Below, piece by piece: positions 1,267-49,078 of a stretch of DNA of 64,000 nt. The DNA is taken from the NCBI RefSeq assembly GCF_010614805.1, contig NZ_JAAFZC010000002.1:186001-250000 (forward strand). Direction: 5' to 3'. The DNA is from Pseudooceanicola aestuarii. Its GTDB lineage: Bacteria > Pseudomonadota > Alphaproteobacteria > Rhodobacterales > Rhodobacteraceae. Position 1 is the stretch's first letter; each line of letters starts with the position of its first letter. The notes beneath the pieces are model-generated. The model worked only from the letters and a program-made list of their open reading frames with translations. It searched no databases and was not told the origin of the DNA. Made by a program: the position numbers and the translations under genes.

Positions 1267-1341
1267 CCTGTCCGCTGCTGACCTGGCAAAGACCTTTGCG
1301 CGGCACATGAAGAGTGTCGCGCAATCGTTTGACAAGTCTTC

Positions 1342-7895: not shown

Positions 7896-7925
7896 TTTCG
7901 TTCCTCCCAGTATTGCGGCGGGGCC

Positions 7926-13711: not shown

Positions 13712-13747
13712 GAATCTCCTCCCGCCGAGCAACCTAGTCCGCAGTCC

Positions 13748-13901: not shown

Positions 13902-15695
13902 CTATCCTTCCGGCAGGTGGGTCAGCACCAGCCGTGACCCCTGCGGCCCGGTCGCGATGGCGATTTCCGCCACCTGCGGACGGGTTTCCAGCGCCGGATC
14001 GCCACCGCCTTGCAGGTTGCGCGCCAACCGGGGAAAGGAGCTGGCCGCCACGTGCAACCGCAGCCGGTGCCCGGCCGGAACGCGATAGGCGATGTCCCGC
14101 AGCGCCACGCGGGCCGTCACCGGTCGGCCCGGCGTCAGCAGCGCGGGCACCGGCCCGTCGCGGTAGCGCAGGCGCAACGCGCCCTCCTGGATGGTGATCG
14201 ACCGGCCCTGGGCATCCACATCCGTCAGGCGCAGTACCAGGTCGGCATCGGGGGCCGTGACGCTGACGCGCAGATCGGCGTGGATCGGCCCGGCCAGGGT
14301 CAGCGGCGCGCGCAGCGGGGCGCTATCGAAAATCAGCAGATCCTCGCGCCCCTCGATCGCACGCTGGTCCAGCGGCCCGGCGCGCATTTGCGGATCGCCG
14401 GTACAACAGATGGCCCCGCCCAAGCTGGGGACCGGATCGGCAGGGTCGGCGGCAAAGCGCTGCTCCCCCCGCGTTTCGGGCGGCTGTTGGACCAACCCCC
14501 GGTGACCGAGAAACAGCACCGCCTCGCGGGTGGCGGCAGGCGGCCAGGTTTCGGCCGCGCGCCAGCGGTCGGCCCCCAGCAGGTAGTAAAGCACCGGCGG
14601 CAGATCCGGCACCGGGCCGCCCCGCAGCCTGTGCTCCATCACCGCGAGGAAAATCGCGTCCATGTCCCGGTCCTGCGCCGGATCCAGGGCCGTGTCGCCC
14701 ACGGCACCGCGCGCGAAGGGTTCGGAGGTCTCGCAATGCAGGCCCGGGCCAATGATCACCTGCCCCGGCGCGCCGGTGGCCCGCATATGCGCCGCCAGGG
14801 CCAACGTCTCCCGTGCGCCGTCATACCAATTGTCATGCAGCACGAAGGGCGTGGCAAAGCGGTCCTCGTCCGTGACATAGCCCATCCGCGCCCAGAATTG
14901 CCGATCCTCGAACCGGGTGGTGAAGGCCTCGAAATCGGTGGGATCGGGGCGCTGGCTGGCCACCGCGTCGCGCAGCGGCAGATGCGCCAGGCCCTGCGGC
15001 AGGTCCAGCGGCGGCGCGGCCATGTGTTGCCCGTCCTTGCCGCCGAATTGCGCGAACCAGCCAAAGCCGGTGGACAGGGCAAAGATCCCGCCCTCGTAGG
15101 CGCCGAAATAGCCGTGGTTGCCGCCCAGCGATCCGATCGCGCCACCCGCCCCCATGGGGATCATCGCGCGATGCGCCGGATGGCGGGCGCGGGCCAGCAT
15201 CAGCTGGCTTTCCCCCAGGGCCGAACATCCGATGGTTCCGACTTGACCGTCGGACCAGCCCTGCGCCGCGATCCAGTCCAGCGTGGCCGCGCCGTCGTCC
15301 TGGGCATGGGGCCAGGGGGCAAAGGTGCCGCCGCTGGCATGACGGCCGCGCATGTCCTGCACAGCCACCCCGTAGCCCTCCGGCAGGAACAGCCGGATCC
15401 AGCGCCGGACCTCGCCGTAGCCGCGCTTGCCATAGGGCAGCCGGATCAGGATCGTGGGCACTGGCCCTCCGCGAACGGGCAGATAGAGATCCGTGGCCAG
15501 CGGCGTGCCGTCACGGGCCGCGATCATGACCTGCTGCCGGGTGTCCAGCCCGGGCAGGTCGGCAACGAACCGGCGATGCTCCCACGCGGCCTTGCCGGTG
15601 CGGGCGATGTCTTTCAGCGCCGCGCGCTGCCACCATCCCGCCGCGCCCGCCAGCAGCATCGCACCCCCCAGCACGACCATCAACGCCCGACCCAT
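13902..15695 (-). CDS. CocE/NonD-family (S15-like) hydrolase with N-terminal membrane anchor
   Basis: 597 residues. A hydrophobic N-terminus (about 3-21) followed by Lys/Arg suggests a signal anchor or signal peptide. The alpha/beta-hydrolase part has the nucleophile segment GTIGCSALGES (Ser in GCSALG where family members have GxSYxG), a HDNWYD acidic segment and GPGLHCE for the histidine. The C-terminal ~200 residues form the jelly-roll of the X-Pro dipeptidyl-peptidase C-terminal domain (RLRLHVAASSFPRLARN). The family hydrolyses esters and acyl-peptides, for example CocE and glutaryl-7-ACA acylase. It lies between the sugar operon and the NRPS locus. A role in processing or detoxifying the NRPS product is possible but unproven. 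Confidence 0.85.
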   Translation of the reverse strand: MGRALMVVLGGAMLLAGAAGWWQRAALKDIARTGKAAWEHRRFVADLPGLDTRQQVMIAARDGTPLATDLYLPVRGGPVPTILIRLPYGKRGYGEVRRWIRLFLPEGYGVAVQDMRGRHASGGTFAPWPHAQDDGAATLDWIAAQGWSDGQVGTIGCSALGESQLMLARARHPAHRAMIPMGAGGAIGSLGGNHGYFGAYEGGIFALSTGFGWFAQFGGKDGQHMAAPPLDLPQGLAHLPLRDAVASQRPDPTDFEAFTTRFEDRQFWARMGYVTDEDRFATPFVLHDNWYDGARETLALAAHMRATGAPGQVIIGPGLHCETSEPFARGAVGDTALDPAQDRDMDAIFLAVMEHRLRGGPVPDLPPVLYYLLGADRWRAAETWPPAATREAVLFLGHRGLVQQPPETRGEQRFAADPADPVPSLGGAICCTGDPQMRAGPLDQRAIEGREDLLIFDSAPLRAPLTLAGPIHADLRVSVTAPDADLVLRLTDVDAQGRSITIQEGALRLRYRDGPVPALLTPGRPVTARVALRDIAYRVPAGHRLRLHVAASSFPRLARNLQGGGDPALETRPQVAEIAIATGPQGSRLVLTHLPEG

Positions 15696-15763: not shown

Positions 15764-16495
15764 ATGCACCCCGCCATCGACCTGCACATCTGGCGCCTGA
15801 GCGATCCCGCGGCGGACGTGGCCCTGTCTGCCCATCTGGAGGCGCAGGAAATCGCCCGTGCCGCCCGCTTCGTGCGACCGCAACATGCCCGGGCCCACCG
15901 TATCGCGCGCGGCGGGCTGCGGTTGCGGCTGGCGGAATGGATGGGACAGGCGCCCGCCACCCTGCGCTTTGACATCGGCCCCAGCGGAAAGCCGGCGCTG
16001 CCGGGCGGTCCCTTCTTCAACCTGTCGCATTCGGGCGATCTTGCCTGCCTTGCCATCCATCGCGACCTGGAACTGGGCCTGGACATCGAACAGCACCGCC
16101 CCGTCGAGCGTGGCGTCGCGGAACGGGCGTTCTCCGCCACGGAACGGGCGGCGCTGGACGCCCTGCCCGCCGCGCAATGGATGGCCGGGTTCTTCAATGG
16201 CTGGACCCGCAAGGAAGCTGTGGTCAAGGCAACGGGCGCCGGGCTGTCGATGCGGCTGGAGGCCTTTGACGTGACCCTCGCCCCCGGCACCCCGGCGCGC
16301 CTGACACGAATGGACACCACAGACGGTCCGGCGCAGGCCTGGCAACTGGCGGCATTTGCCCTGGCGCCGGACATTCCCGCCGCGCTGGCCCTGCGCGCGC
16401 CCGTCCTGCCCCCTCTGCGCCTGAAGGAGGCGCCGCCCGGGCTGCTGCCGGAGCTGCCCGATCATTCCGCGACAGGCGGGCGCGGATCGGACTGA
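15764..16495 (+). CDS. 4'-phosphopantetheinyl transferase (Sfp type)
   Basis: 243 residues, the normal Sfp size. The family motifs are present: GPSGKPAL with FFNLSHSGD (about 73-92), LGLDIEQH with the magnesium-binding Asp and Glu (about 104-111), and FFNGWTRKEAVVKATGAGL (about 144-162) with the catalytic W-x-x-KEA-x-x-K. It transfers the phosphopantetheine arm of CoA to carrier-protein serines, and four such sites are encoded by the two synthase genes next to it. It is convergent with the second synthase and overlaps its 3' end by 34 bp. AAGGA precedes ATG 15764. An acyl-carrier-protein synthase of fatty acid metabolism is excluded by length and motifs. Confidence 0.95.
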   Translation: MHPAIDLHIWRLSDPAADVALSAHLEAQEIARAARFVRPQHARAHRIARGGLRLRLAEWMGQAPATLRFDIGPSGKPALPGGPFFNLSHSGDLACLAIHRDLELGLDIEQHRPVERGVAERAFSATERAALDALPAAQWMAGFFNGWTRKEAVVKATGAGLSMRLEAFDVTLAPGTPARLTRMDTTDGPAQAWQLAAFALAPDIPAALALRAPVLPPLRLKEAPPGLLPELPDHSATGGRGSD

Positions 16496-19386
16496 CCCCG
16501 GGCGGGGCGGGGCTGTGCGGTTCGCGGGGGGGCGAATTGGGGTGGCATCGCCCCCTCGCCCAGGAATTCAGCCATGTGACGGGCCATATCCTCGACCCCG
16601 TCGCGGCGCCCGCCATGGACCGACACGCGCGGCAGGTGCACCGTCTGCAACAATTCCGGCGACAGCAGCCTATCCCAGCCGATGGAGGGCGCATAGTTGC
16701 GTCCCTGCGGCGTGATGTCGGTGACAACATGCAGCACCGGAAAATCCACCGGACCGGGACGATAGACGTCGCGCAGCCGCGAAATCGCGGAGACAAAGAG
16801 TTCCTCGTCACGCTCCATGTCGGTCTTTCGCACGGCATCCAGCAGCCCCAGCCGGGCCAGCGCCCAGGGCAGACCGGTGGCGCGGATCATGCGGAACCGG
16901 CCGAGAAAGGCGGTCAGGCTCATCTCGCCGCGGCGCAGGGCGCGCAGAGCGTTGCGCAGGGCCTGCACCCGATCGCCCCAGCGGGTCAGGAAGGTGCCGC
17001 GCAGACCGTCGGTATAGGCGGGTTCCCACACGTCCTTCATAACCACGGCGCGGATCTCCGCCCCCTGGGCATGAAGCAGGCGCGCCGCCTCCAGCGCGAG
17101 GTTGCCATGCACGCAATTGCCGTACAGCAGATAAGGCCCGTCGGGCTGCGCCTTGCGGATCAGGGCGGCGCAATCGGCGGCGACGTCCTCGAACCGCTTG
17201 GCCGTCAGGTCGATGCCCCGATCCCGGTCGAAGATGCGGATGCAGCGCGCCGGACGCCGCACCCCGCCGGCATTCGACAGCGCCAAAGCGGTGGCAAAGT
17301 TGTTCACCGCGATCAGCGGCTGGCCGGTGCCGTCCTCGCGCAGGGTCATCAGGCGCCAGTCCGGGCCGTCCTCTGCCCCCGTCTCCAGCGCCGCGCGGGT
17401 GCGTCTTACCAGATCGGCCAGCGCGGCCAGCGTGGCGTGTTCATAGAATTGCGTCACGTCCAGCGTGATCGACCAACGCGCACGCAACCGGGCCAGCTGG
17501 CGCAGCACCAGCACCGAATGCCCGCCGAGGTCAAAGAAATTGTCCCCCGGTTGCGGTGCGGGATGGTTCAGGATCTCTGCCCAGTCGGCGGCAAGCGCCT
17601 GCATCACCGCATCGGGGGCTGGTGCCGCCAGCGCTCCCTGTCCGGTATCGACGCTTCCTCCCGCCTCGCCCCCCCGCAGCACCTCGGCGCCCCGGCCCGG
17701 CGCTGCTGCAAGTCCCTCCTGCGGCGGCGGGAGCAGCAACGCGCGATCCGGCAGGCCATCGTTGCCCAGCGGTAGGGCGCCCAGCAGGGACAGGCCCGTC
17801 AGTTCCGTCAGCGCGGGGTGGCCGGCCAGCGCGGCGGTGATGCGGCGCGGCAGATCCTCCAGCGGCACGGCGCCCGTCGCCCCCGGCACGACGAAGCCGA
17901 ACAGCCCCGTCCCTGCCGGCACCACCACCGCCTGCCCGACCAGCGCACAGGACATCAGCGCCTGTTCGGCCGCGCCGATGCGCGCGTCTTCGGCCGCGTC
18001 CCTCCGGGCCAGGACGGGCGGCAGCGGCAGCTCCGACAGTCGCGCCTTCGGGTCGCGGAACAGCAGTTCGAAGGCCTGCGCCATCATGCCGATCAGCGCC
18101 TCCGCCGTTTCTGGCCGGTAGAGGGCGGTGGCATATTCCACGGTCACCTGCCACCCCGAGGGGCGCCCCATCACCGCCAGGTCCAGATCGTGGATCGCCC
18201 CCGGCGTATGCGACGGCGAGGAGACGAATTCGACGCCGCCGAAGGTACCGCCCTGCATGAACACGTCCTGAAGGTTGAAATTCACCCCCGCCAGCGGCAG
18301 CCGCGCGGGATCACGCGGCGGGTTCACCGCGCCGACGATCCGGTCAAAGGGCAGATCCTGATGGATCAGCGCGCCTTCGACGACTTCAGCGGCGGTGCTG
18401 ACGTGATCGGCCAGCGTGGCCTCGTCCGTGGTGGGCAGGCGCAGGACCAGCGTGTTGATGAACACCCCGATGAGCGGCTCCAGCTCCAGTTCGGTACGGC
18501 CGGCGACCTGCGTGGTGATGCGTGCCTCCGCCCCACCCTGAAGTCGGTGCAGGCAGGCGGCAAACAGCGCCACGCCCAGGGTGAACCGCGACACACCCAT
18601 GGCCCGTGCCGTGGCCTTCAGCCGGGGGCCAAAATCCTGCGGCAGGTCCAGCGACACCTGCGCCACCCCGGTCTGCCGTCGCGCCGGGCGGGGCAGATCG
18701 GGGCGCAGCTCGTAGGGGGTGCCCCGGCCCAGCTGCGCCCGCCAATAGGCGATATCCTCTTGCGCGGTGTCGGTGGCCAGAAGCTCGGCCTGCCACAGGG
18801 CGAAATCGCCGTAATGCAGCGCCAGCGGCGGCAGCTCGGGCGTGGCACCCTGGCTGAGCGCGGCAAAGGCGGCGCCGACCTCCGCGCCCAGCACCCGGAT
18901 CGACCAGCCGTCGAAACAGATATGATGCGCCACCAGCACAAGGATCGCGCGGTCGCCCGACAGCCGGATCAACGTCGCCCGCAGGTGCCCCGCCTGTCCC
19001 AGGTCAAAGGGCCGGGCCGCGACCTGCCGGGCGATGTCCTCGATCCGGGCGGCATGGCCGGGTGCGGGCACGGCGCGCAGGTCGACGACGTCCAGCCGGA
19101 ACGGCGCGTGTTCAAGCACCTGTGCCAGCGGCGTCTCCCCGCGTTCCAGGTAGCGGCTGCGCAGCACCTCGTGGCGGTCGATGACATGGGTGATGGCGTT
19201 TTCCAGCGCCGCGCAGGACAGCGCGCCGCGCAGTTCCCACCGCACCGCGACGTTGAGAGAGGGATCACCGGGCGCGACCCGGTCCAGGAACCAGAAGCGG
19301 CGCTGGTTGGCCGACAGGGGCACCTCTGCCGTGACGCGAGCGCGGGCTTCGGGGTCGGGGGCGGAGTGGCGGGGATCTCCGGTCAT
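16462..19386 (-). CDS. NRPS termination protein: C, adenylation-domain stub, PCP, Cys-type thioesterase
   Basis: 974 residues from ATG 19386, coupled to the upstream synthase by ATGA. Domains in order: condensation (about 10-440) with the catalytic HHICFDGWS (His154-155); a stub at about 460-550 that looks like only the C-terminal subdomain of an adenylation domain, ending LPLGNDGLPDRALL, where the usual NGKxDRKAL lysine is lost; PCP (about 585-660) with DLGGHSV, carrier Ser624; thioesterase (about 690-950). In the thioesterase the nucleophile elbow reads YGNCVHG, so Cys758 replaces serine; Asp785 and His924 complete a plausible triad. The Cys-Asp spacing of 27 equals the Ser-Asp spacing in the surfactin thioesterase. 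With no adenylation core, PCP loading must come from elsewhere or is not needed. Frames upstream of 19386 are inside the first synthase. Confidence 0.93.
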   Translation of the reverse strand: MTGDPRHSAPDPEARARVTAEVPLSANQRRFWFLDRVAPGDPSLNVAVRWELRGALSCAALENAITHVIDRHEVLRSRYLERGETPLAQVLEHAPFRLDVVDLRAVPAPGHAARIEDIARQVAARPFDLGQAGHLRATLIRLSGDRAILVLVAHHICFDGWSIRVLGAEVGAAFAALSQGATPELPPLALHYGDFALWQAELLATDTAQEDIAYWRAQLGRGTPYELRPDLPRPARRQTGVAQVSLDLPQDFGPRLKATARAMGVSRFTLGVALFAACLHRLQGGAEARITTQVAGRTELELEPLIGVFINTLVLRLPTTDEATLADHVSTAAEVVEGALIHQDLPFDRIVGAVNPPRDPARLPLAGVNFNLQDVFMQGGTFGGVEFVSSPSHTPGAIHDLDLAVMGRPSGWQVTVEYATALYRPETAEALIGMMAQAFELLFRDPKARLSELPLPPVLARRDAAEDARIGAAEQALMSCALVGQAVVVPAGTGLFGFVVPGATGAVPLEDLPRRITAALAGHPALTELTGLSLLGALPLGNDGLPDRALLLPPPQEGLAAAPGRGAEVLRGGEAGGSVDTGQGALAAPAPDAVMQALAADWAEILNHPAPQPGDNFFDLGGHSVLVLRQLARLRARWSITLDVTQFYEHATLAALADLVRRTRAALETGAEDGPDWRLMTLREDGTGQPLIAVNNFATALALSNAGGVRRPARCIRIFDRDRGIDLTAKRFEDVAADCAALIRKAQPDGPYLLYGNCVHGNLALEAARLLHAQGAEIRAVVMKDVWEPAYTDGLRGTFLTRWGDRVQALRNALRALRRGEMSLTAFLGRFRMIRATGLPWALARLGLLDAVRKTDMERDEELFVSAISRLRDVYRPGPVDFPVLHVVTDITPQGRNYAPSIGWDRLLSPELLQTVHLPRVSVHGGRRDGVEDMARHMAEFLGEGAMPPQFAPPRTAQPRPARGQSDPRPPVAE

Positions 19387-22300
19387 GATACGGCCCTCCT
19401 GCCGATGCTGCCCAGGGGCGGGCGCCGTGCGCCATGGCGATACTCCGCCAGCGCGGGCCGCGTCCGGATCTGTGGCCCGGCCCCGGACGTGGGCTGCGTC
19501 CTGCGGGCGTCGTGAAAGACGGCCAGACTGCGCACGTCGGAATGGGTCAGCATGTCGCGCGCATCCAGGTCCAGCCCGTCCTGCAACATGCGGGCGGCGA
19601 TGCGAAAGATCGCCAGGCTGTCGGCGCCCAGGGCGAACAGCGGCGTGGTCACGCTGACCTCTGGCAGGTCCAGCCCGGCGGCCCAATGCGCGGCGATGCG
19701 CTGTTCGGTCGGTGTGGCCGGCAGGATGGCGGTTCCCTGCGGAGCGGCGGCGTCACCGGGTGTGGCGGTCCGGCCCTCCACGCCTCCGCCCCTGGCCGGG
19801 GCGGCAGGCTGCGGGGCGGCGGGGCGGCTTTCCTCAGGGTCGGGCAACGCCTTGCGGTCCAGCTTTCCGTTGCCGGTCTGTGGCAGTGCCTCCAGCGTGA
19901 CCCAACTGCGCGGGATCATGTAATCGGGCAGGTCGGTCGCCAGATCACGGGCCAGCGCGGCGGGGTCCGCCACCTGCCCCGGCTCGGTCACCAGCCAGGC
20001 CGTCAGCCGTGCATCCCCCGTGCCCAGACGGCGCAGGTCCACCGCCGCCTGGGCAATGCCGGGCTGGGCGCGCAGGCGGGTTTCGATCTCTCCCAGCTCG
20101 ATGCGAAAGCCGCGCAGCTTGACCTGGGTGTCGATGCGACCCAGCACCGTGATCTCTCCTGCCGGGGTCAGGCGCGCCAGGTCGCCCGTCGCATAAAGGC
20201 GGCGGGCCACCCCGCCGATCGTCACCTCGCGAAACGCCCGGTCGGTCAGGTCGGGCCGGTTGAAATAACCCTGTGCCAAGCCTGCACCGCCGATGTTCAG
20301 CTCTCCGGTCTGGCCGGGCAGGACGGGCTGGCCGACAGGGTCGAGGATCAGCAGATCGGTATTGGCAATCGGCCCGCCCACGGTGATCTCCGCCCCCGGT
20401 TCGATCCGGCGCAGGGCGGACCAGATCGTCGTTTCTGTCGGGCCGTACATGTTCCACAACTCGGCCCCCTGCCGGGTCAGCCGATCGGCCAGGTCACGCG
20501 CCAGCGGTTCCCCCCCGCAGAGCATCCGCAGTCCGGCACGCGGTGTGAAGCCCGCGGTCAGCACCATGTCCCACAGGGTCGGCGTGGCCTGCATCATGGT
20601 GATGTCGCCCTGCCCCAGCCTGTCCGCCAGGCGAAAGGCATCCACGACATCCTCCGTCGGGGCGATGACCAGCCCGGCGCCGGTGATCAGCGGCAGAAAC
20701 AGCTCCAGCACCGCGATGTCGAACATCGCCGTGGTCACCGCCAGCAGCCGGTCCTGCGGGCCCATGCCGGGCGTCCCGGCCATGGAGGTCAGGAAATTCA
20801 CCACCGCGCCATGTGGCACCGCGACCCCCTTGGGCGTGCCGGTGGAGCCGGAGGTGAAGATGACATAGGCCGTGTCCCGCGGCGTGGTGGTGATCGGCGC
20901 GGGGCTGTCGCCCGGCGCGGCATCCCCCGCCAGGATCACCGGGGTCTCCCCGGCAAAGGGCGCCGTCGCGGGCGTGTCGGTCAGGATCGCGGCGACCTGC
21001 GCGGTATCGCAGATCATTCGCAGCCGGGCCTGCGGCTGGCGCGGGTCCAGCGGCACATAGGCCTGCCCCGCCTTGAGCACCGCCAGCAGCCCCACCAGCA
21101 TCCCCGCACCGCGCGGCAGGCAGACCGCGACGCGCTGGCCCTGATCCGGCACGCTGCGCTGGATCAGCGCCGCCAGCGCGTCGCTGCGCGCCGCCAGCTC
21201 GGCATGGGTTAGATCGTCGTCCACCGCCGATACCGCCAGCGCATCGGGCGCCAGCGCGGCCCCACGCGCCACCAGGTCGGGCAGCGTGGCGCTGCGGTCG
21301 TAGTCCGTGGGCGTGGCGCACAGCATGGCGCGGTCCAGCGCCTTTGCCGGCAGCAGCGGCAGGGTCGCAACCGGCTGATCGGGCTGGCGCGCGATCTCTG
21401 CCAGGATGGTCTCATAGGCCCGGCACCAGCCCTCGACCGTTGCGCCATCCAGCAGCGCGGCATTGTAATGCGCGTCGATCCGCAGACCCTGCGCGGTTTC
21501 ACACAGATTGAAGAACAGGTCGAAATTCACCGCCTGTTTCGCATTGGGCCGGAATTCGGCCTGCACGCCCGGCATGCCGGTGACGGCGCCGTCCTTCTCA
21601 AGGTTGAACTCGATTTCCGTCAGCGGCAGGCGATCCATCCGGCGCGGCAGGCGCAAGGCCTCCACGATGGTGCCAAAGGTCGTGTCCTGGTGATCGAAGG
21701 CCTGCATCAGCGCCTCGCGCGCCGTGGCCAGGTGGCTGGCGACGCGGGCCTTGGCCGCCAGCGGCGCGCGGATCGGCAGGAAATTCACGCAATGACCGAC
21801 CAGATCGGGGCGCTCCATCTGCTGCTGGGCTGCCGTGGGCACGCCCAGCACGATGTCCCGCGCGCCGGTCAGGCGGTGCACCAGCATCTGCATCGCGGCA
21901 AAGGTCGTGGCGAACAGGGTACAGCCCTGCGCGCCGCCCGCACGTTTGACCGCGCGCGACAGCTCGGCCGGGATCTCGTGAAAGACGGTGCCGCCCTCGA
22001 ACCGGCGCGGATCGGGGCGCGGCCGGTCGGTCGGCAGATCGGGCAGCGGCGCGGGGTCGCGGTGCAGCGCGACCCAATGGTCCAGCGCCTGCGCCGCCTG
22101 CCCTCCGGTTCCTGCCGCCTGCGTCGGCGCAAGGCTCCGGGCATGGGCGGCAAAGGAGGGTGCCGGCAGCAGATCCACCGCCTGCCCCGCCACCGCCGCC
22201 GCATAAAGCGCGGCAAGATCGTCCAGCAGCACCCCGAAGGACCAGCCATCCACCGCGATGTGATGCGCGGTCAGAACCAGCGCATGCCGTTCGGGCGCCA

Positions 22301-25300
22301 GCGCGACCAGCTGCAACCGCAGCGGCGGCGCCGCCGTCAGGTCGAAGGGCACGGCACCGTCCTGTGCGATCAACGCCGCCAGCGCGGCGGCGGGGTCTTC
22401 CGCGTCGGACAGGTCCAGCCGGTTCAGCGGGCAATCCGGCTCTTCCACGGTGAAATATTCGCCGCTGCGGGCAAATCGCAGGCGCAGCGCCTCGTGCCGC
22501 GCCACCAGCCCATGCAGCGCCGTTGTCAGCGCGGCGGTGTCCAGAGACCCGTCCAGCCACAGCGTACCGCTTTCGTTGAAGGCCGCCGCCGACAGCCCGC
22601 CCATCTGATGCGCCATCCAGATCTCGCGCTGGCCGGGCGTCAGGGGGATTGGGTCGGTGAAGGCAGAGGCGGACCCGCGCGTGACCTCGTTCGCGGTGCC
22701 TGTTTCGGGGTCGTTCAGACGCAGATCGTTCAGGATCCCCACCGACAGCAACTGGTCCAGCGCCGTCTCGAAGGCCGCAGCCACGCGGTCGCATTCGGCG
22801 GTCCCGTGCCGCGTGGTCAGAAAGGCGCAGAACCCGTCCATCACATGTACCCCCTGCATCCGCATCAACGGAAACAGCAGGGAGGCGCGGGGGTCGTGAT
22901 CGGTGACATTGATGACGAACCAGCTGGAATAGCTCTCGATCAGGTCCGGCAGGCCGCGTGTGGTCATGATCCCGCCCAGCCGCGCCGCCAGCGAAGCACA
23001 GCGCGCCGCCGCCCCCTGCCACAGCGCGTCGCCATGGGCCTCCATATGATCCAGCGTTGCGTCCACGGCGGCCAGAACCAGGGGATGGCGCACGAATGTG
23101 CCGGCAAAGAAGGTCGGCACCGCCTCTGGCCGGCTGTCATCACCAAAGGACCAGTCGCCCCCGTCCAGCGCATCCATCCAGCGCGCATCGCCGGCCAGTA
23201 CGCCGATGGGCATGCCGCCGCCCACGACCTTGCCATAGGTGGCCATGTCGCCCTGGATATCCCAGATCCCCTGCATGCCACGCGGACCGGTGCGAAACCC
23301 GGTGACGACTTCGTCCATGATCAGGGCGGCGCCGGCCTCGCGGGTGATCTGGCGCAGGGTCCGCACGAATTCCTCTGGCCGGTGGGCGGGATGGCGGCTT
23401 TGGACCGGTTCGACGATGACGCCTGCGACCTCCGCCGCATGGGCGCGCATCCACGCCAGCGCGTCGTCACTGCCGTAGCGCAGCACCACCATGTTGGTCA
23501 GCCCCGAACGCGGGATCCCCGGCGCGATGGGCAGCGCATCGGGGGCGTCGCCACGGGCGCGCCCCTTGACCAGAACTTCGTCAAACTGGCCGTGATAATC
23601 CCGGTCGAACACCACGATCTTCTCCCGGCCGGTCACGGTGCGGGCCAGGCGCATGGCGGCCATCACCGCCTCCGAGCCGGTGTTGCAGAAGGTGACGCGC
23701 TGGTGGCCCGTGGCGCGGGCGAATTTCTCGGCCACCGGCCCGGCCAGATCCGATTGCGGGCCGATGGGAAAGCCGCGCGCCATCTGGCGGGTCACCGCTT
23801 CGGTCACGAAATCCGGCGAATGGCCAAAAGCCGTCTGGCCAAAGCCGTTTACCAGATCGACGAAATCATTGCCGTCAGGATCGTGCAGCCAGGCACCATG
23901 AGCGCGTTCGGCGACGATGGGAAAGGTCAGCTCCTTCCAGTCCGCGCGGAACCCGGCGGCGGTGCGCGGATCGGCCAGGGTGGCGCGGTGCCGCGCGGTC
24001 GCGGCCTTGGAGGCCGGGTGCTTCGCGCTGTAGCGTGCCGCCAGGTCGCGGGCGAATGCGCGCTGCGCCGCAGTCAGGGTTCCGCCGGTGACCGAGGGGC
24101 CGCGACCGGTGCGAAAGGCGGTGGGTTCGGCCACGGGCGCCTCGGACGCGGGCGCTTCTGCCAGGGGCGCAGGGCCGGCGGCGGGGGCGTCTGTGGCGGC
24201 CTCTGCCGGGGCGGATGGCTGCGGCACAGTCCCAGCCGGGGCGTCCGGCAAGGTTGCTGACGCGATCGCGCCGGCACCGGACCGGGGTTGGCCCAACGCC
24301 TGCAATTGCTGGGCAAACACCGCCTGCATGGTCTGCAATTGCGCCTGCATCACGCCAGCGGCACCGGGCAACCCGGCCATTGCCGTAGCCTCCGCCATGG
24401 CCATGGGTGTGGATTGGCCCGCAGGCGTCTGTGGCGAAACGGGCGCCGGCGCGGCGGGCTGTGCCGCCACGGCCGGAGCGGCGGGCGGCATGGCGGTTGG
24501 CGCGGCGGTCGGGGTCGCCGGCGCGGCCGGACTGGCCTCCGGCTCCGCTGGCATTTCCGCATCGAGATGCGCGGCCAGCGTGCGCAGGCTGGACAGGTCC
24601 GACAACAGCCGCCGGAACCCGATCGTCACGCCGAAATCGCGCGCCAGGGCTTGGCTGACCTGCCCCATGAACAGGCTGTCGAACCCCAGTTCCAGGAACG
24701 GCACATCGGCCTCTTGCGCGGAAATCTCCTCTCCCGACAGATCGGCAAGGCAGGTGGCCAGCACCGGGATCAGGCGATCCTTGCGCGGCAGGTCTGTCGC
24801 TGCTGGCGGGGCGGTCTGCGAAACAGCCTGCGCGGAGCCTTGCGAGGTCTCGGCCGGGTTGATCATGGCGGGGCGCTCCTGTGTCGGGATGGCGGGCGGC
24901 GGTGCGATATCGGCGGGCGGGGCGGCCCCGCCCTCGGGTGGATCGACCCAGTGCCGCCGCCGCTGGAACGGATAGGCCGGCAGCGTCGTCACCCGCCCCT
25001 GCGCGGCGCCCCATTGGTCCCAGTCCAGCGGCAGACCCGCAGACCAGAGGTCAGATGCCGCGACAGCCATCGAGATGTCATCGGAAACCGATCGGGCATG
25101 ATCCGGCAACGAATGAAAAAGTCCTCGATGACTGCCACGGCGCAAGATCTGCCCGGCCAGGGTGGTCAGGATCCGTCCCGGACCCGCCTCCACCAGCACC
25201 GGCGATCTTGTTTCGCTTCCCTCGGCGCGCTCGGCGCCATCGGGGGAGTTCGGACAGGCCGCCGTCAAGGCAGCCCGGAAATTCACACAGGCCCTTGCCT

Positions 25301-28300
25301 GCCGCGCCCAATAATCGGGGGATTGCGCCTGTTCCGCCGTCAGAACGGCGCCCGTGACGGTAGAGATGATCCGCCGGTCGGGGGCGCGCAGCGTCATCCC
25401 CGCCGCCAACGCGCGCAGCGGATCGATCACCGGATCCATCATCGCGGAATGGAACGCATGCGAGGTCTGCAACGGCTGCGTCGCGATCCCCGCCCCCGCC
25501 AGCCGCGCGGCCAGTGCCGCGATCGGCCCCTCGGGGCCGGCGACGACCTGTAATTCAGGCGCGTTTCGCGCGGCGATCTCCAGCCCGTCCAGATGCGGGG
25601 CCAGGGTGTCTTCGCTGGCGCGAACCGAAAGCATCGCTCCGGCGGGCTGATCCATCATCAGCTGCCCGCGCGCGGCGATCAGGGTCAGCGCATCCTCGAA
25701 GCGCAGGACATTGGCCAGCGCGGCGGCGGTGAATTCGCCCACCGAATGGCCGATCATGACATCGGGGCGCACCCCGCGCGCCTCCCACAGCCGGGCCAGG
25801 GCATATTCGGTCAGGAACAAGGCCGGTTGCGTCAGCCGCGTCCGGGTCAGGGCGCGCGCCGCATCGGCATCACCCAGGCCCCGGCCCAGCAGCAGCGGGC
25901 GCAGATCCTCGCCCAATGTCGGTTCCAGCAGGGCGGCGCCCTTGTCGATCCAGTGGCGGTATTCCGGCGCGCTGTCATATAGCCCGGCGCCCATGCCGGG
26001 ATATTGCGCGCCCTGGCCGGGAAAGAGAAAGATCACCTCAGGCGCGTCCGTCGTCCTGCGCGGGGGGGCCGTCTGGGCGCGCAGGGCGGCGGCGGCCTCC
26101 GCCCGGGTGCGGGCGACCACGGCGGCGCGCCAGCCGAACTGGCGCCGCCCCCGTTGCAGGGTGCGCGCGACATCGACCAGCGGCGCGGGGTCGGACATCG
26201 GCAGGGGCATGGGCTCGGGCTTGGGCATGGGCTTGGGATCAGGCTGCCTGGCATCCGGCACTGGCGGTGAAACCTCCGGCCCCGGTCGCGGCGGATCGTC
26301 CAGCTGATCAGCCAGGCGCTGCGCCATCGCGTGTAGCGCCTCGGGAGTGGCGGCGGACAGGGGCAGGATCTGCGGTGCGTCCCCCTGCGGCTCCACCATC
26401 GCGGCGCGGCCCTCCTGCACGACGGGGCCCAATTCCGGAGCGGGGCCCGCCTGCTCCATCACCAGATGCGCATTGGTGCCGCCCACCCCGAAAGAGGACA
26501 CGCCCGCCCGCCGCAGCCCCGTCTGCGGCCAGCCCTCAGGTGCCTGCGGCACACGGAACCCGGTGCCCTCCAGCGTGATCCGGGGGTTCAGCGCGGTGAA
26601 ATGCGGCACCGGCGGCACGATGCCGCGCTGCAAGACCAGCGCCGTCTTGATCACGCCGACCACACCGGCGGCGGCATCCAGATGACCCAGGTTGCCCTTG
26701 ACCGATCCCAGGGCGCAGGGGGTGGTGGCGCCGTCAAAGGCCGCACGCAGCCCCGCGATCTCCACCGGGTCTCCCAGCGGGGTGGCGGTGCCGTGGCATT
26801 CGACATGGCCGATCTGCGACGGCGCCACCCCGGCATCGGCCAGCGCGCGGCGGATCGCCGCCGCCTGCCCGGCACCGGAGGGCGCGGTATAGGACATCTT
26901 GTCCGCGCCGTCGTTGTTCAGCCCGGCGCCCCGGATCACCGCGTGGATGCGGTCACCCGCCGCCTGCGCGTCCTCCAGCCGTTTCAACACCACGATCCCG
27001 GCGCCGTGACCAAAGACCGTGCCGCCGGCCTGCGCGTCGAACGGTCGGCACAGCCCATCGGGCGAAGCCATGCCCCCCGCCTGGTGAAGATAACCGCGCT
27101 TTTGCGGAAAGGTGATCGACACGCCCCCGGCCAGCGCGGCGTCCACCGCACCTGCCCGCAGCGCCATCACCGCCTGTGCAATCGCCACAAGCGAGGTCGA
27201 GCAGGCCGTATTCACCGACACCGCCGCCCCGGTCAGCCCCAGACGATAGGCGGTGCGGGTGGCGATACCGTCGCTGTCATTGCCGGAAAGCAGCGTGTAA
27301 TCCAGCTGGAAACCGCTGGTGAAGGCGCGCAGGGCCGCCCGGTCGGGCAGCAGGTTCTCCAGCAGGTAAGTCGACATGGAGGCCCCGGCATAGACCCCCA
27401 CCGCGCCGGCGAAACGCTGTGGGTCCAGCCCGGCATCGTCCAGTGCATGCTGCGCGATCTCCAGGAAGATCCGGCCCTGGGGATCCGTCTGTGCCGCCTC
27501 ACGCGGGCGCATCCCAAAGAACGGCGCGTCGAACTGATCGACATCGGGCAGGATCGACCGGGCCGGCACGTAATCGGGCCGGGCACGGGTGGCGGGATCG
27601 GCGCTGTCCTCGGCCTCGGCCGGGTCAAAGCGGGTGATCACGCTGCGCCCCTCCTGCAAGACATCCCAAAGCTGGGTCAGGTCCGCCACCCCGGGCAGTC
27701 GCGCGGCCATGCCGACAATGGCAATGGCGCCGCTGGCAGGGGGATGGGACCGGTCGGCGCTGGTGACGGCGGGCACTGGCGCCTCTGCGGGGGGGGCGGC
27801 GGCCGCGGTCGGAAGGCGCGCCAGCACGCCGGCCAGATCGCCGAGGCGCGGCGTGTCGAACAGGGTGGCGATGTCGAAGCGCCGAGCCAGGTCACGCTCC
27901 ATCAGGGCGTGGACCTCAATCAATTGCAGCGAGGTACCGCCAAGGTCAAAGAACGTCTGCCCCGGCGCGGGCGGTGCGCCGCCCAGCACGCTCTGCCAGA
28001 TCGCGGCGATGGTGGGGATCAGGTCGCGGGCGGTCTCTGTCCGGGTCGCCGCGTGTTCGGCGCGGGCAGGCTCAGGGGCGATGCTCTCTGCCAGGATGCT
28101 CTCTGTCGCGGCAGTTTCTGTCTGGCCAATCCGGGTTTCGGTACCCGCGTCACCTGGGCTCCGGGGTTCGGCACTCCCCGCAGCGGCGCGCGCAACGGCG
28201 CGGCCTGCCCTGCCGGGCACCTCGGCATCGGAGCTGTCCGGTCCGGCTGTGCCATCCGCCATTGTCGCGCCCTGCGCCAGCCGGGCGCGCAGGGCCTTGC

Positions 28301-29837
28301 GGTCGACCTTGCCCGCGCGGGTCAGCGGAAGGCTGGGCAACAGTTCGATCCGGCGCGGCATCACAGCCTCCGAGATCCGCCCGGCGGCGGCGGCGCGCAG
28401 ATCGGCGATGCGGGCCTCCGCCGGCATGTCTTCGGCGGCGGTGTGCACCACGACAAAGGCGGCAAGGCGCCGGGCCGTGCCGGCTCCCTCGACCTCTACC
28501 GCCGCATCGGCGATGCCGGGCAGATTGCGCAAGGTCGCCTCCACCCCGTCCAGCTCCACCCGCCGACCTGCAAGTTTCACCTGCCGATCCGACCGCCCCC
28601 GGAACAGAAGCGCACCGTCCGGCCCCGGCACGGCAAGATCTCCGGTCAGGTACAGCCGCCGCGCCCCCTCCCCCGTCCGGCCCGGCCGGGGATCGGCGAT
28701 GAAGGCCGCCGCCGTCAGGTCGTCACGGCCGAAATAACCCTGCGCAAGGCCGCTGCCGCCGATGGCGATCTGCCCGCCCTGCCCATCCGGCACGGGGGCC
28801 AGGTCGTCGCCCAGCAGCACCGCCTCTTCCCCCGGCAGGGGCTGGCCGATGGGAATGTCCCCGGTGGCCAGATCGTCGGGGGTGACCTGGTGCCAAAGGC
28901 TTTGCGCGCAGGTTTCCGTGGGGCCGTAGACGTTCAGCAATCGCAGATCCGGGTATCGGGCCAGCAGCCTGCGGGCATGGGGTACCGACATCACATCCCC
29001 CCCCGCCAGCGACAGGCGCAGGCTGGCAAAGGCGTCGATCTGGTGGTCGATCATCAGGTGGTGCAACCCGGCATACCAGCTGGCCACCGTCACCCGGTGC
29101 CCGGTCATGACACGCGCCACGTCGTCCAGACCAGGCAGGGCCTGCGGTACCACCGCCACCGCAGCGCCGGACAGCAGCGGCACCATGATGTCATAGAGCG
29201 ACCCGTCACAGGCGATCGTCGCCGCATGAAGCGCCACATCCCCGGGCGTCATCGCGATCTGCGGCTGCCCGGCCATGGCGGTCAGGGCGCGCTGCGGCAG
29301 CACCACCCCCTTGGGCCGTCCCGACGTGCCGGAGGTATAGAGGATACAGGCGGCATCGCCCGCCTGTACATGCGGCCAATAGGCGCCATCGGGGGCTGGC
29401 GCCGCCTGTCCCAGCACCTGTACCGGCCCCTGCGCCGGCTCTTGCCAGCCGGTCAGGACGCCCGCCTGCGGCGCCAGCTCCGGTGTGGCCAGAAGGGCGG
29501 CGGGGTTGACGTCGTCGGTGATGTCATGCAGATGCTCGGGTGCGAAACCGGGGTCCAGCGGGACATAGGCCGCACCCAGCCGCAAGCAGGCCAGCATGGC
29601 GACGATCGCTTCGACCCCGCGCCCGGCCAGGATCGCCACACGCGCGCCGCGCCCGATCCCGGCGCGGTGCAAGGCGAAGGCCTCGGCTTCGGCGCGGGTG
29701 GCGAGGCTGGCGTAGTCGATCACCTGCGCCGCGCACAGCAACGCAGGTGCCCGAGGCGCGGCCGCGACATGCGTGGCCAGCCGGGCGAACACGCCCTCCG
29801 GCATCGCTGCTGCGTCCTTTTGCGCCCGTGCCTGCAT
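19383..29837 (-). CDS. Hybrid NRPS-PKS megasynthase with aminotransferase domain
   Basis: 3484 residues. Domains: adenylation A1 (about 15-515; LYTSGTSGRPKG, NVYGPTE, AGKVDRKAL); PCP (Ser636 in DLGGTSL); ketosynthase (about 700-1125; Cys879, His1015, His1052); acyltransferase (about 1265-1570; Ser1365 in GHSVGE, and HAFHS, the malonyl-type signature); ACP (Ser1721 in LGFDSL); an Ala/Pro-rich linker (about 1760-1925); class III PLP aminotransferase (about 1925-2370; Lys2203 in TYGKVVGGG); condensation (about 2390-2830; HHIAVDGWS); adenylation A2 (about 2845-3330; pocket residues read D-I-L-Q-L-G-M-I-W, the known glycine code); PCP (Ser3407 in LGADSL); basic C-terminal tail. KS-AT-ACP-aminotransferase-C is the order used by mycosubtilin/iturin synthases to make beta-amino acyl chains. 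No ketoreductase is present. AGGGAGGG lies 9 nt before ATG 29837; the frame stays open upstream to 30044. Confidence 0.95.
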   Translation of the reverse strand: MQARAQKDAAAMPEGVFARLATHVAAAPRAPALLCAAQVIDYASLATRAEAEAFALHRAGIGRGARVAILAGRGVEAIVAMLACLRLGAAYVPLDPGFAPEHLHDITDDVNPAALLATPELAPQAGVLTGWQEPAQGPVQVLGQAAPAPDGAYWPHVQAGDAACILYTSGTSGRPKGVVLPQRALTAMAGQPQIAMTPGDVALHAATIACDGSLYDIMVPLLSGAAVAVVPQALPGLDDVARVMTGHRVTVASWYAGLHHLMIDHQIDAFASLRLSLAGGDVMSVPHARRLLARYPDLRLLNVYGPTETCAQSLWHQVTPDDLATGDIPIGQPLPGEEAVLLGDDLAPVPDGQGGQIAIGGSGLAQGYFGRDDLTAAAFIADPRPGRTGEGARRLYLTGDLAVPGPDGALLFRGRSDRQVKLAGRRVELDGVEATLRNLPGIADAAVEVEGAGTARRLAAFVVVHTAAEDMPAEARIADLRAAAAGRISEAVMPRRIELLPSLPLTRAGKVDRKALRARLAQGATMADGTAGPDSSDAEVPGRAGRAVARAAAGSAEPRSPGDAGTETRIGQTETAATESILAESIAPEPARAEHAATRTETARDLIPTIAAIWQSVLGGAPPAPGQTFFDLGGTSLQLIEVHALMERDLARRFDIATLFDTPRLGDLAGVLARLPTAAAAPPAEAPVPAVTSADRSHPPASGAIAIVGMAARLPGVADLTQLWDVLQEGRSVITRFDPAEAEDSADPATRARPDYVPARSILPDVDQFDAPFFGMRPREAAQTDPQGRIFLEIAQHALDDAGLDPQRFAGAVGVYAGASMSTYLLENLLPDRAALRAFTSGFQLDYTLLSGNDSDGIATRTAYRLGLTGAAVSVNTACSTSLVAIAQAVMALRAGAVDAALAGGVSITFPQKRGYLHQAGGMASPDGLCRPFDAQAGGTVFGHGAGIVVLKRLEDAQAAGDRIHAVIRGAGLNNDGADKMSYTAPSGAGQAAAIRRALADAGVAPSQIGHVECHGTATPLGDPVEIAGLRAAFDGATTPCALGSVKGNLGHLDAAAGVVGVIKTALVLQRGIVPPVPHFTALNPRITLEGTGFRVPQAPEGWPQTGLRRAGVSSFGVGGTNAHLVMEQAGPAPELGPVVQEGRAAMVEPQGDAPQILPLSAATPEALHAMAQRLADQLDDPPRPGPEVSPPVPDARQPDPKPMPKPEPMPLPMSDPAPLVDVARTLQRGRRQFGWRAAVVARTRAEAAAALRAQTAPPRRTTDAPEVIFLFPGQGAQYPGMGAGLYDSAPEYRHWIDKGAALLEPTLGEDLRPLLLGRGLGDADAARALTRTRLTQPALFLTEYALARLWEARGVRPDVMIGHSVGEFTAAALANVLRFEDALTLIAARGQLMMDQPAGAMLSVRASEDTLAPHLDGLEIAARNAPELQVVAGPEGPIAALAARLAGAGIATQPLQTSHAFHSAMMDPVIDPLRALAAGMTLRAPDRRIISTVTGAVLTAEQAQSPDYWARQARACVNFRAALTAACPNSPDGAERAEGSETRSPVLVEAGPGRILTTLAGQILRRGSHRGLFHSLPDHARSVSDDISMAVAASDLWSAGLPLDWDQWGAAQGRVTTLPAYPFQRRRHWVDPPEGGAAPPADIAPPPAIPTQERPAMINPAETSQGSAQAVSQTAPPAATDLPRKDRLIPVLATCLADLSGEEISAQEADVPFLELGFDSLFMGQVSQALARDFGVTIGFRRLLSDLSSLRTLAAHLDAEMPAEPEASPAAPATPTAAPTAMPPAAPAVAAQPAAPAPVSPQTPAGQSTPMAMAEATAMAGLPGAAGVMQAQLQTMQAVFAQQLQALGQPRSGAGAIASATLPDAPAGTVPQPSAPAEAATDAPAAGPAPLAEAPASEAPVAEPTAFRTGRGPSVTGGTLTAAQRAFARDLAARYSAKHPASKAATARHRATLADPRTAAGFRADWKELTFPIVAERAHGAWLHDPDGNDFVDLVNGFGQTAFGHSPDFVTEAVTRQMARGFPIGPQSDLAGPVAEKFARATGHQRVTFCNTGSEAVMAAMRLARTVTGREKIVVFDRDYHGQFDEVLVKGRARGDAPDALPIAPGIPRSGLTNMVVLRYGSDDALAWMRAHAAEVAGVIVEPVQSRHPAHRPEEFVRTLRQITREAGAALIMDEVVTGFRTGPRGMQGIWDIQGDMATYGKVVGGGMPIGVLAGDARWMDALDGGDWSFGDDSRPEAVPTFFAGTFVRHPLVLAAVDATLDHMEAHGDALWQGAAARCASLAARLGGIMTTRGLPDLIESYSSWFVINVTDHDPRASLLFPLMRMQGVHVMDGFCAFLTTRHGTAECDRVAAAFETALDQLLSVGILNDLRLNDPETGTANEVTRGSASAFTDPIPLTPGQREIWMAHQMGGLSAAAFNESGTLWLDGSLDTAALTTALHGLVARHEALRLRFARSGEYFTVEEPDCPLNRLDLSDAEDPAAALAALIAQDGAVPFDLTAAPPLRLQLVALAPERHALVLTAHHIAVDGWSFGVLLDDLAALYAAAVAGQAVDLLPAPSFAAHARSLAPTQAAGTGGQAAQALDHWVALHRDPAPLPDLPTDRPRPDPRRFEGGTVFHEIPAELSRAVKRAGGAQGCTLFATTFAAMQMLVHRLTGARDIVLGVPTAAQQQMERPDLVGHCVNFLPIRAPLAAKARVASHLATAREALMQAFDHQDTTFGTIVEALRLPRRMDRLPLTEIEFNLEKDGAVTGMPGVQAEFRPNAKQAVNFDLFFNLCETAQGLRIDAHYNAALLDGATVEGWCRAYETILAEIARQPDQPVATLPLLPAKALDRAMLCATPTDYDRSATLPDLVARGAALAPDALAVSAVDDDLTHAELAARSDALAALIQRSVPDQGQRVAVCLPRGAGMLVGLLAVLKAGQAYVPLDPRQPQARLRMICDTAQVAAILTDTPATAPFAGETPVILAGDAAPGDSPAPITTTPRDTAYVIFTSGSTGTPKGVAVPHGAVVNFLTSMAGTPGMGPQDRLLAVTTAMFDIAVLELFLPLITGAGLVIAPTEDVVDAFRLADRLGQGDITMMQATPTLWDMVLTAGFTPRAGLRMLCGGEPLARDLADRLTRQGAELWNMYGPTETTIWSALRRIEPGAEITVGGPIANTDLLILDPVGQPVLPGQTGELNIGGAGLAQGYFNRPDLTDRAFREVTIGGVARRLYATGDLARLTPAGEITVLGRIDTQVKLRGFRIELGEIETRLRAQPGIAQAAVDLRRLGTGDARLTAWLVTEPGQVADPAALARDLATDLPDYMIPRSWVTLEALPQTGNGKLDRKALPDPEESRPAAPQPAAPARGGGVEGRTATPGDAAAPQGTAILPATPTEQRIAAHWAAGLDLPEVSVTTPLFALGADSLAIFRIAARMLQDGLDLDARDMLTHSDVRSLAVFHDARRTQPTSGAGPQIRTRPALAEYRHGARRPPLGSIGRRAVS

Positions 29838-30233: not shown

Positions 30234-31016
30234 TCAGTCGCGGTGCAGCAGATAGCCCCGGCTGTAGCTGCGCCCGGTCCAGGGATGGGTGGGGATGACG
30301 TGCCCCAGCTCGGGGATATCCCATTGATCGGCCAGCCGGTAGCCGGTCGCCGCCAGCTCCGCCTGCCAGTCGCGGGCGCCGCGAATCCGGTAGGGCACGC
30401 GCTGTGTCCCGATCCGCTCCAGCGTGACCAGCGTGGGCCCGTCGCGCAGGGCGACCTTGTTCAGGATCAGGTGACGCGGTGGCGCCGTCAGCTGGCCCAG
30501 CAGCTCCGGCAGGGGCCGGTCGAGATATTGCAGCAGCCCGGAGGCCAACAGCACATCCGCTCTCCCTGCCTGCGCCGGATCGGTGCAGAATTCCAGCGCC
30601 GCAGGAAGCGCGCCCGCCGCCTGCATCCGCCGGGCATGGGCGACGATGGCGGGCAGATCCTGCACCGTCCAGCGCACGCCGCCCAGATCCAGCAGGTCGG
30701 CAAAGGCAATGTACTTGGTCCCCAGGTGCCCGCCTGCGTCGATCAGCCTGCCATCGCGCGGCAGCAGCCGGTCCAGCCAGAACAGTACCGGGTAATCCCA
30801 GGGCGCGCGCTGGCACATCTCCGCAAAGGAGACATCGGCGATGCCGGCGCTGTCATAGCCCGCGCGGTGATCCGCCGGCAGCGCGGCCAGGGCGGCGGCA
30901 CGGTCCGGCCAGGCGCCGCGAAACCGGGAGTGACGCCCGGCGGCAGCCCGCAGGTGGACCAGCCCGACCCCGGCCAGCATCCGGGCCAGGCGCAGCGGCG
31001 AACGCGGAAAGCTCAT
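30234..31016 (-). CDS. TIGR04325-type putative methyltransferase
   Basis: 260 residues from ATG 31016, coupled by ATGA to the flippase gene before it. A SAM-binding-like Rossmann segment is seen at RLIDAGGHLGTKYIAFADLL, followed by VQDLPAIVAHARR and DVLLASGLLQYLD, the pattern of the TIGR04325 family found in polysaccharide and methyltransferase clusters. The C-terminal half has LILNKVALRDGPTLVTLERI and ends in a conserved-looking aromatic stretch. It probably modifies a surface glycan or its carrier; the chemistry is unproven. It ends about 400 bp from the synthase start on the same strand, so read-through into the synthase operon is conceivable. Confidence 0.8.
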   Translation of the reverse strand: MSFPRSPLRLARMLAGVGLVHLRAAAGRHSRFRGAWPDRAAALAALPADHRAGYDSAGIADVSFAEMCQRAPWDYPVLFWLDRLLPRDGRLIDAGGHLGTKYIAFADLLDLGGVRWTVQDLPAIVAHARRMQAAGALPAALEFCTDPAQAGRADVLLASGLLQYLDRPLPELLGQLTAPPRHLILNKVALRDGPTLVTLERIGTQRVPYRIRGARDWQAELAATGYRLADQWDIPELGHVIPTHPWTGRSYSRGYLLHRD

Positions 31017-32873: not shown

Positions 32874-33587
32874 ATGACACAAATATCGACGACCAACCTG
32901 GCGGGTCAATTCTCCGGCGGGTTGCGTCTTGCAGACTTCTCCACCCCGGCGGAACGCGCATCTCGCGACCGGGCGCATGGCCCCTGGGCCAAGGCGCTGT
33001 TCGATCGGGCCTTTGCCGCCGTGGCACTGATCCTGGCACTGCCGATCATGGCGGCGGTGGCGGCGGTGCTGCTGGTCACCGATGGCCGGCCGCTGGTCTA
33101 TGGGCACCGGCGCATCGGGCGGGATGGCACGTCTTTTGTCTGCTGGAAATTCCGGACCATGGTCGTCGATGCCGATGCCCGGCTGGAGGAGGCCCTGGCC
33201 TCCAGCCCCGAGATGCGCGCCGAATGGGAAGCCCGGCGCAAGTTGACCAACGACCCCCGCCTGAACGCCGTCGGTGCCCTGCTGCGGCGCACCAGCCTGG
33301 ACGAGCTGCCGCAGTTCTGGAACGTGCTGCGCGGTGACATGGCGATGGTCGGGCCGCGCCCGATCACCCGCTCGGAACTGGCCTATTACGGGCTCTACGT
33401 CACCGATTACACCTCGGTTCGTCCGGGGCTGACGGGGGCGTGGCAGATCGGAGGGCGCAGCGATACCAGCTATGCGGCGCGGGTGGCGATGGATGTGAAA
33501 TACGTGCGCGGCTATACCTTTATGGGCGATCTGGTGATCATCCTGCGCACCGTGCGGGCCGTGGCCGGCATGATCGGTGCACGGTAG
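32874..33587 (+). CDS. Priming sugar (undecaprenyl-phosphate) transferase, ExoY/WcaJ type
   Basis: 237 residues. An N-terminal hydrophobic helix (about 38-62) is followed by the bacterial sugar-transferase domain: GRDGTSFVCWKFRTM, RLNAVGALLRRTSLDELPQ, NVLRGDMAMVGPRP and SVRPGLTGAWQ, all diagnostic. It moves a sugar phosphate to undecaprenyl phosphate and so starts repeat-unit synthesis at the inner membrane. An ATG at 32874 is used; a TTG at 32856 in the same frame is an alternative, and neither has a strong ribosome-binding site. It is followed after 9 bp by a glycosyltransferase gene. Confidence 0.92.
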   Translation: MTQISTTNLAGQFSGGLRLADFSTPAERASRDRAHGPWAKALFDRAFAAVALILALPIMAAVAAVLLVTDGRPLVYGHRRIGRDGTSFVCWKFRTMVVDADARLEEALASSPEMRAEWEARRKLTNDPRLNAVGALLRRTSLDELPQFWNVLRGDMAMVGPRPITRSELAYYGLYVTDYTSVRPGLTGAWQIGGRSDTSYAARVAMDVKYVRGYTFMGDLVIILRTVRAVAGMIGAR

Positions 33588-43173: not shown

Positions 43174-43181
43174 TACCGTCC

Positions 43182-45434: not shown

Positions 45435-45533
45435 AAGTTGCCCCTGTCTGATGCGGCGCCCCCAGGCGCCTACTGCTACATGTAGTGGCTCTACCGGGGG
45501 CTGACGCCCATCGGCCACTCTTCTGTGGCAGTT

Positions 45534-46901: not shown

Positions 46902-46907
46902 GCGGGA

Positions 46908-48086: not shown

Positions 48087-49078
<992 letters not shown>

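Follow-up and report, generated by a model that had tools for sequence, protein, structure and literature searches.

Background

In MycA, one of the closest described counterparts of the line considered here, the domains follow the order KS-AT-ACP-AMT-C. The microcystin synthase McyE and its relatives also have a PKS module whose in-line aminotransferase (AMT) feeds a condensation (C) domain, as here, and they differ from the present line in their longer chain and macrocyclic product. We know of no link to exopolysaccharide (EPS) genes for McyE-type lines.

The present line occupies two genes of the window, by which the whole 64-kb stretch of DNA under analysis is meant. In the initial annotation it was framed as a natural-product line. 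Its anatomy as described there is confirmed; the line does not stand in isolation, however, but is tied to EPS genes. This link to EPS loci, which is held with high confidence, is the main new point beyond that annotation. A literature search, judged by title or by the start of the abstract, returned no paper on the gene set.

Gene layout and domain anatomy

An ORF check of the 64-kb window finds both genes open at the places and on the strand given below. They overlap by four bases, and their starts at 29837 (gene 1) and 19386 (gene 2) are backed by codon use.

19383..29837, minus: gene 1, 3484 aa, A1-T-KS-AT-T-AMT-C1-A2-T
28266..29798, minus: A1, starter adenylation domain, code DGYSLGVAQK (approximate boundaries)
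27825..28013, minus: T1 carrier, GGTSL
26598..27728, minus: KS, Cys in TACSTS
25125..26033, minus: AT, GHSVGE and HAFHS (malonyl type)
24645..24860, minus: T2 carrier, GFDSL
22845..24059, minus: AMT, class III aminotransferase, nearest to mycosubtilin MycA
21345..22649, minus: C1, HHIAVDG
19818..21263, minus: A2, glycine-type code DILQLGMIWK
19500..19682, minus: T3 carrier, GADSL
16462..19386, minus: gene 2, 974 aa, C2-(A remnant)-T-TE
18016..19329, minus: C2, HHICFDG in the window
17677..17964, minus: A domain remnant with no active core, read from the sequence
17407..17598, minus: T4 carrier, GGHS
16567..17319, minus: thioesterase (TE) with Cys nucleophile, GNCVHG, Cys758 at 17113-17115

The ATG at 29837 is the preferred candidate for the start of gene 1 over the GTG at 30044, because it is preceded by an SD-like site, AGGGAGGG. 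In Pfam, gene 1 matches AMP-binding (two stretches), PP-binding (three), the N and C parts of ketoacyl-synt, Acyl_transf_1, Aminotran_3 and Condensation, and gene 2 matches Condensation, PP-binding and Thioesterase. In NCBIfam, TIGR01733 (amino acid adenylation) matches two stretches of gene 1. The order A-T-KS-AT-T-AMT-C-A-T is derived from the Pfam stretches together with the motif positions, and these bear out the domain order that had been claimed for both genes. No KR, DH or ER family is matched in either gene at E 0.001 (Pfam), which agrees with the claimed absence of a ketoreductase, and the malonyl-type HAFHS motif is present in the AT as described. What had been called an A stub in gene 2 is, in our own reading, a remnant of the small A subdomain, with about 95 residues between C and T and the terminal Lys missing. 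In a rhizobial gene 2 (locus L106) only about 50 residues lie between the C and T matches, and this copy is therefore taken to have no A remnant. The same domain arrangement is seen in relatives, so that it is not a chance reading.

Active sites, substrate codes and predicted intermediate of gene 1

The domain alignments comprise 88 copies, namely the window, the best 80 of 212 loci and seven plasmid loci; the totals vary between domains, since some of the 88 copies do not have every domain. The active sites of gene 1 are retained in copies spanning three orders. The KS Cys is found in 83 of 84 aligned copies (one gap) and both KS His in all 84, while in the AT the Ser is retained in 84 of 86 copies, the other two being gaps, and the His of HAFH in all 86. 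The PLP lysine of the AMT and the second His of C1 are each present in 88/88 aligned copies, and the first His of C1 in 86.

The two adenylation domains show distinct patterns. The glycine code of A2 occurs in 85 of 87 copies (a set that includes the best 80 of 212 loci), the remaining two being L067, which is truncated, and the outlier L111. A1, in a set of 74 copies that likewise includes the best 80 of 212 loci, exhibits 42 different codes, and its key position is Asp in all 74. We take this Asp to denote an alpha-amino acid and the A2 code to denote glycine, the code positions being likewise assumed. The A1 codes DALWLGGTFK (the 11 Paraburkholderia copies) and DAFWLGGTFK (L071) are presumably valine-like, and the window code DGYSLGVAQK matches no substrate code known to us. 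Because of the Asp at the key position in every copy, an amino acid rather than a fatty acid is supported as the predicted starter.

In comparison with PDB, the AMT is by far closest to MycA (E 1e-104; best non-MycA entry, 1.6e-51), in line with the earlier suggestion of transamination as in mycosubtilin. A beta,gamma-diaminoacyl-glycine intermediate is the best reading of the domain logic and is probable, since a MycA-like AMT is combined with a glycine code in A2 and an amino-acid-type code in A1. The earlier proposal had the starter extended by one malonyl unit, transaminated and joined to glycine. A malonyl AT, an amino-acid starter and a glycine-type A2 are backed by sequence, and the beta,gamma-diamino unit is what we infer from domain order.

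In Rhizobium and Loktanella, A1-T is a stand-alone protein. In one other relative a TAG lies within the C domain frame of gene 1 (G006:C36:117065-118369), and may be a sequencing error or a sign of decay.

EPS genes around the line in the window

The genes on either side of the line are as follows.

13902..15695, minus: CocE/NonD (S15) family hydrolase; the N-terminal part resembles a membrane or signal segment
15764..16495, plus: 4'-phosphopantetheinyl transferase (PPTase), convergent with gene 2
30234..31034, minus: methyltransferase, TIGR04325 family
31013..32452, minus: Wzx-type polysaccharide flippase, PF13440; ORF open to 32548
32922..33587, plus: initiating polyprenyl-phosphate sugar transferase, PF02397
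33597..34646, plus: glycosyltransferase, GT2-like (weak Pfam match; distant HpsN-like match)
34643..35941, plus: glycosyltransferase, GT4-like

The PPTase, the flippase, the sugar transferase and the glycosyltransferases belong with the line, and the feature is larger than first noted. The CocE/NonD hydrolase adjoins the line in 12 of the 56 long loci described below. In the window its gene is abutted by an operon on the minus strand (6945-13732) with a LacI-type regulator, an IolE-like protein, a Gfo/Idh dehydrogenase and a sugar ABC transporter. Several relatives have a glycosyltransferase and Wzc after CocE in place of this sugar operon, and the EPS locus may therefore break near 13.7-13.9 kb of the window. 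Farther along, at 41746-50504, are NtrB/NtrC- and NtrY/NtrX-like kinase/regulator pairs, DusB and an IspD-IspF fusion, which are ordinary for the group.

A probable second half of the EPS locus

After the line, Jannaschia has the PPTase, a glycosyltransferase, Wzc, a Wzy-like gene, a glycosidase-like gene, two small genes and a pyruvyl transferase; the Wzy-like and glycosidase labels are assigned here to genes annotated as hypothetical. In the genome of the window, pyruvyl transferase, glycosidase-like, Wzy-like, Wzc and glycosyltransferase genes are found at C2:503086-511537, and these five have the order and relative strands seen beside the Jannaschia line. They lie on the same contig as the window locus (C2:199902-221941), about 281 kb beyond it. 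The pyruvyl transferase, the co-polymerase and the glycosyltransferase are confirmed by Pfam, the Wzc/Wzz co-polymerase at C2:508219 with PF02706 and GNVR. The membrane-type protein at C2:506284 (60% to the Jannaschia gene) has no Pfam match, and two of its homologues have no NCBIfam match; its Wzy label is assigned here.

Because the genes in Jannaschia order are found about 281 kb away, the EPS locus appears to be split in this genome, with the line having stayed with the flippase half. A Wza-type exporter is annotated near the line in relatives. Neither the window locus nor the second half has a Wza gene; the two PF02563 matches of this genome are on contigs C1 and C7.

Strength of the association with EPS loci

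An EPS gene lies beside the line in 53 of the 56 alphaproteobacterial loci of at least 20 kb among the best 80 of 212 loci, the genes counted being flippase, sugar transferase, Wzc, Wza and pyruvyl or glycosyl transferase. No EPS gene by a stricter list is found in the other three long loci (L054, L060 and L099). A core EPS count gives 51/56, and leans in Rhizobiales on a membrane protein labelled Wzy; when this protein is left out, a flippase, sugar transferase, Wzc or Wza is found in 36/56 (2/19 in Rhizobiales). The flippase itself is seen in 27/56. Outside the 56 are 13 alphaproteobacterial loci shorter than 20 kb and 11 Paraburkholderia loci. The loci were grouped by record taxon and place on the tree, some MAGs being named just Alphaproteobacteria or Proteobacteria.

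In the controls, an EPS gene was found in none of 18 other NRPS loci and in one of 15 arbitrary stretches from the family of the window. The 18 NRPS loci were hand-picked, represent 10 genomes and have a smaller mean length (15.5 kb vs 21.2 kb); they include one AMT-bearing locus, L144, which is also counted among the distant AMT lines below. The 15 stretches are those obtained from 20 positions fixed by hand, and one is just 4 kb long.

The EPS queries were drawn from loci of the family itself, which biases the counts in favour of a link, and for this reason a test with PF02397, which is free of this bias, was added. A search of 394 same-family genomes (393 genera) for the AMT gives a match with E no worse than 1e-60 in 21. 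The AMT identity is at least 59% in 13 of them, which were used for the test, and 43-52% in the remaining eight. Of the 11 testable genomes, all except G346 (10 of 11) have a PF02397 match no farther than 20 kb from the AMT, where about 2.8% is expected for each under a chance model that assumes an even spread. Two genomes in which the AMT contig is below 6 kb (G091 and G139) and two below-cut-off G182 matches were left out. In the stretches around the distant AMT lines (L144 and L149-L156; just 3.7 kb for G022) no EPS label is found nearby, and the eight distant lines look like other pathways.

The plasmid loci of Rhodobacter, Jannaschia, Loktanella and two Rhizobium strains have the line among annotated EPS genes (Wzx, sugar transferase, Wzc, Wza or pyruvyl transferase, in various sets). 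The queried EPS genes are absent in the 11 Paraburkholderia loci; in the one inspected, glycosyltransferases, an SGNH-type protein and an acyltransferase surround the line.

A chance or passenger origin of the link was considered and rejected on the other-NRPS, arbitrary-stretch and PF02397 controls.

Two further features of the rhizobial surroundings may be recorded. Some 9-12 kb upstream of the line, L110 carries curli-like csg genes (905-3165), which point to a matrix role. A PF24793 (GINT1_N) protein is encoded in L106 at 25123-26784 (Pfam was applied to L106 alone), and proteins of this type recur by tblastn in 27/56 loci, including 17/19 in Rhizobiales.

Gene 2 and its unusual sites

The thioesterase nucleophile of gene 2 is Cys in all 77 aligned copies and lies within the pattern G-x-C-x-x-G; downstream of it, a Gly-Trp pair is invariant among the same 77. 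A conserved Asp follows the Cys by 27 columns in 75/77 aligned copies, a placement that suggests position I and not the position after strand 7. The TE His is at its usual column in 47/77 aligned copies, and the window copy is not among these. The predicted T-TE structure (mean pLDDT 89.5) matches NRPS thioesterases as a model: AB3403 and EntF rank first in Foldseek, and an EntF fragment and NocB in VIA-align. In sequence, the best match of the T-TE part is AB3403.

In the condensation domain C2, 15/77 aligned copies, including the window, have the second His of the HHxxxDG motif, and it is replaced in 62 (Gln in 37, Asn in 11, Ser in 11 and Tyr in three). Mapped on the AMT tree, this position must have changed state at least 18 times when absence of gene 2 is scored as an extra state, and the Gln and His states account for at least seven changes each by well supported branches. 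Such repeated change offers a possible natural series for probing the role of this His.

In view of the invariant TE Cys, the loss of the C2 His, the variable TE His and the T4 carrier, which is absent from the alignment in 11/11 Paraburkholderia gene 2 copies, gene 2 more probably serves release or transfer than ordinary elongation. The opposite possibility is that C2 is normal and that an A domain, be it A1, A2 or some other, charges T4 in trans, to give a tri-unit product, EPS-bound or free. Since the window C2 has a complete HHxxxDG, as do 15/77 aligned copies in all, ordinary condensation on T4 is conceivable; the T4 Ser is retained in 66 copies outside Paraburkholderia, and A1-T, being a separate protein in Rhizobium and Loktanella, could act in trans. 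Moreover, loss of the second His of a C domain need not always abolish condensation. This product is nevertheless rather unlikely, considering that the second His is lost in 62/77 in C2 while its C1 equivalent is kept in 88/88, that the C2 changes are scattered over the tree, and that 11 Paraburkholderia copies have no T4.

Parts of gene 2 show decay, as seen in the A remnant, in a C2 His that was lost repeatedly and in a TE His out of place. It may be supposed that the whole line is decaying, or that it came into the EPS locus by chance or as a recent passenger. This is highly improbable, as the active sites of gene 1 are kept across three orders and the EPS link recurs far above chance.

Gene 2 is not found in L051, L054, L063, L064 and L066, each with at least 14.7 kb of locus sequence. 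It may thus be lacking in some loci, whose lines would be released otherwise or by a distant gene.

Proposed role in EPS decoration

The position of the line within an EPS gene set suggests decoration of a polysaccharide rather than a free natural product. In the proposed scheme, A1 would load an alpha-amino acid onto T1, and KS-AT-T2 would add one malonyl unit to give a beta-keto-gamma-amino thioester, the ketone of which the AMT would convert to an amine. C1 would then couple this beta,gamma-diaminoacyl chain to the glycine that A2 places on T3. Gene 2, having no A domain of its own, would take over the acyl chain via T4 and the TE cysteine and pass it to a sugar amine or hydroxyl, most simply on the cytoplasmic lipid-linked repeat unit. 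The decorated unit would be flipped by Wzx, and polymerised and exported by way of the polymerase-like and Wzc genes of the other half of the locus. Pyruvylation of a lipid-linked repeat unit in the cytoplasm, as described in the available part of PMC6801904, is a precedent for decoration before export.

That the line is dedicated to EPS, with the whole scheme correct in outline, is somewhat favoured; for the acyl transfer to the polysaccharide taken by itself, the chances are about even. A more tentative extension, which we would sooner doubt than accept, is that Rhodobacterales and Rhizobiales share an EPS class with a serotype-like A1 residue and a fixed glycine, zwitterionic together with pyruvyl ketals, in which gene 2 is a new sugar acyltransferase.

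A rival to decoration is a free secreted molecule (a signal, a metal binder or a protease inhibitor), coregulated with EPS and acting in the matrix, with the TE releasing the product. The beta,gamma-diamino unit can be likened to statine-type inhibitors, a terminal TE is present, and the hydrolase adjoining the line in 12/56 long loci could process a peptide. Against it, no exporter, whether MFS, ABC or other, is found repeatedly among the five annotated records, whereas a flippase is annotated in three of the five and seen in 27/56 long loci. The nucleophile, Cys in 77/77, also belongs to the rarer type of TE, Cys being less common than Ser according to the available part of PMC11298585. On balance a free product is unlikely.

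If EPS decoration is true, thiotemplated lines serve the surface polysaccharide machinery as well as free natural products, the orphan NRPS-PKS family is explained, and cationic or zwitterionic EPS is predicted in marine and rhizosphere bacteria. It would also provide a natural case of a thioesterase acylating a glycan. The orphan line is made testable, in that the polysaccharide, and not culture extracts, is the place to look.

Comparison with known systems

The gene set as a whole resembles Wzx/Wzy EPS loci such as that of succinoglycan (exo), with which it shares a flippase, an initiating sugar transferase, a co-polymerase and a pyruvyl transferase. It differs from the exo locus in its NRPS-PKS line, to which, as far as we know, nothing in exo corresponds.

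Among thioesterases, AB3403 is the best match of the window T-TE part in both sequence and Foldseek. ObiF1 and SulM have a nucleophilic Cys (PMC11298585, in its available part), like the window TE. In ObiF1 and SulM the Asp lies after strand 7, where the conserved Asp here probably takes the other position, and these two enzymes close four-membered rings; the window TE has no Gln-Cys-Asn motif. The Pks13 thioesterase domain involves an acyl chain and a sugar other than those considered here; the available passages of PMC5509550 do not state sugar transfer.

The mycosubtilin and iturin synthases (MycA and ItuA) remain the nearest relatives of the line in the order KS-AT-ACP-AMT-C, in the beta-amino acyl intermediate and in a homologous AMT (PDB match E 1e-104). 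The present line differs from them in its predicted starter, an amino acid selected by an A domain with the key Asp and not a fatty acid, in glycine as the second unit, and in its residence in EPS loci rather than in lipopeptide clusters.
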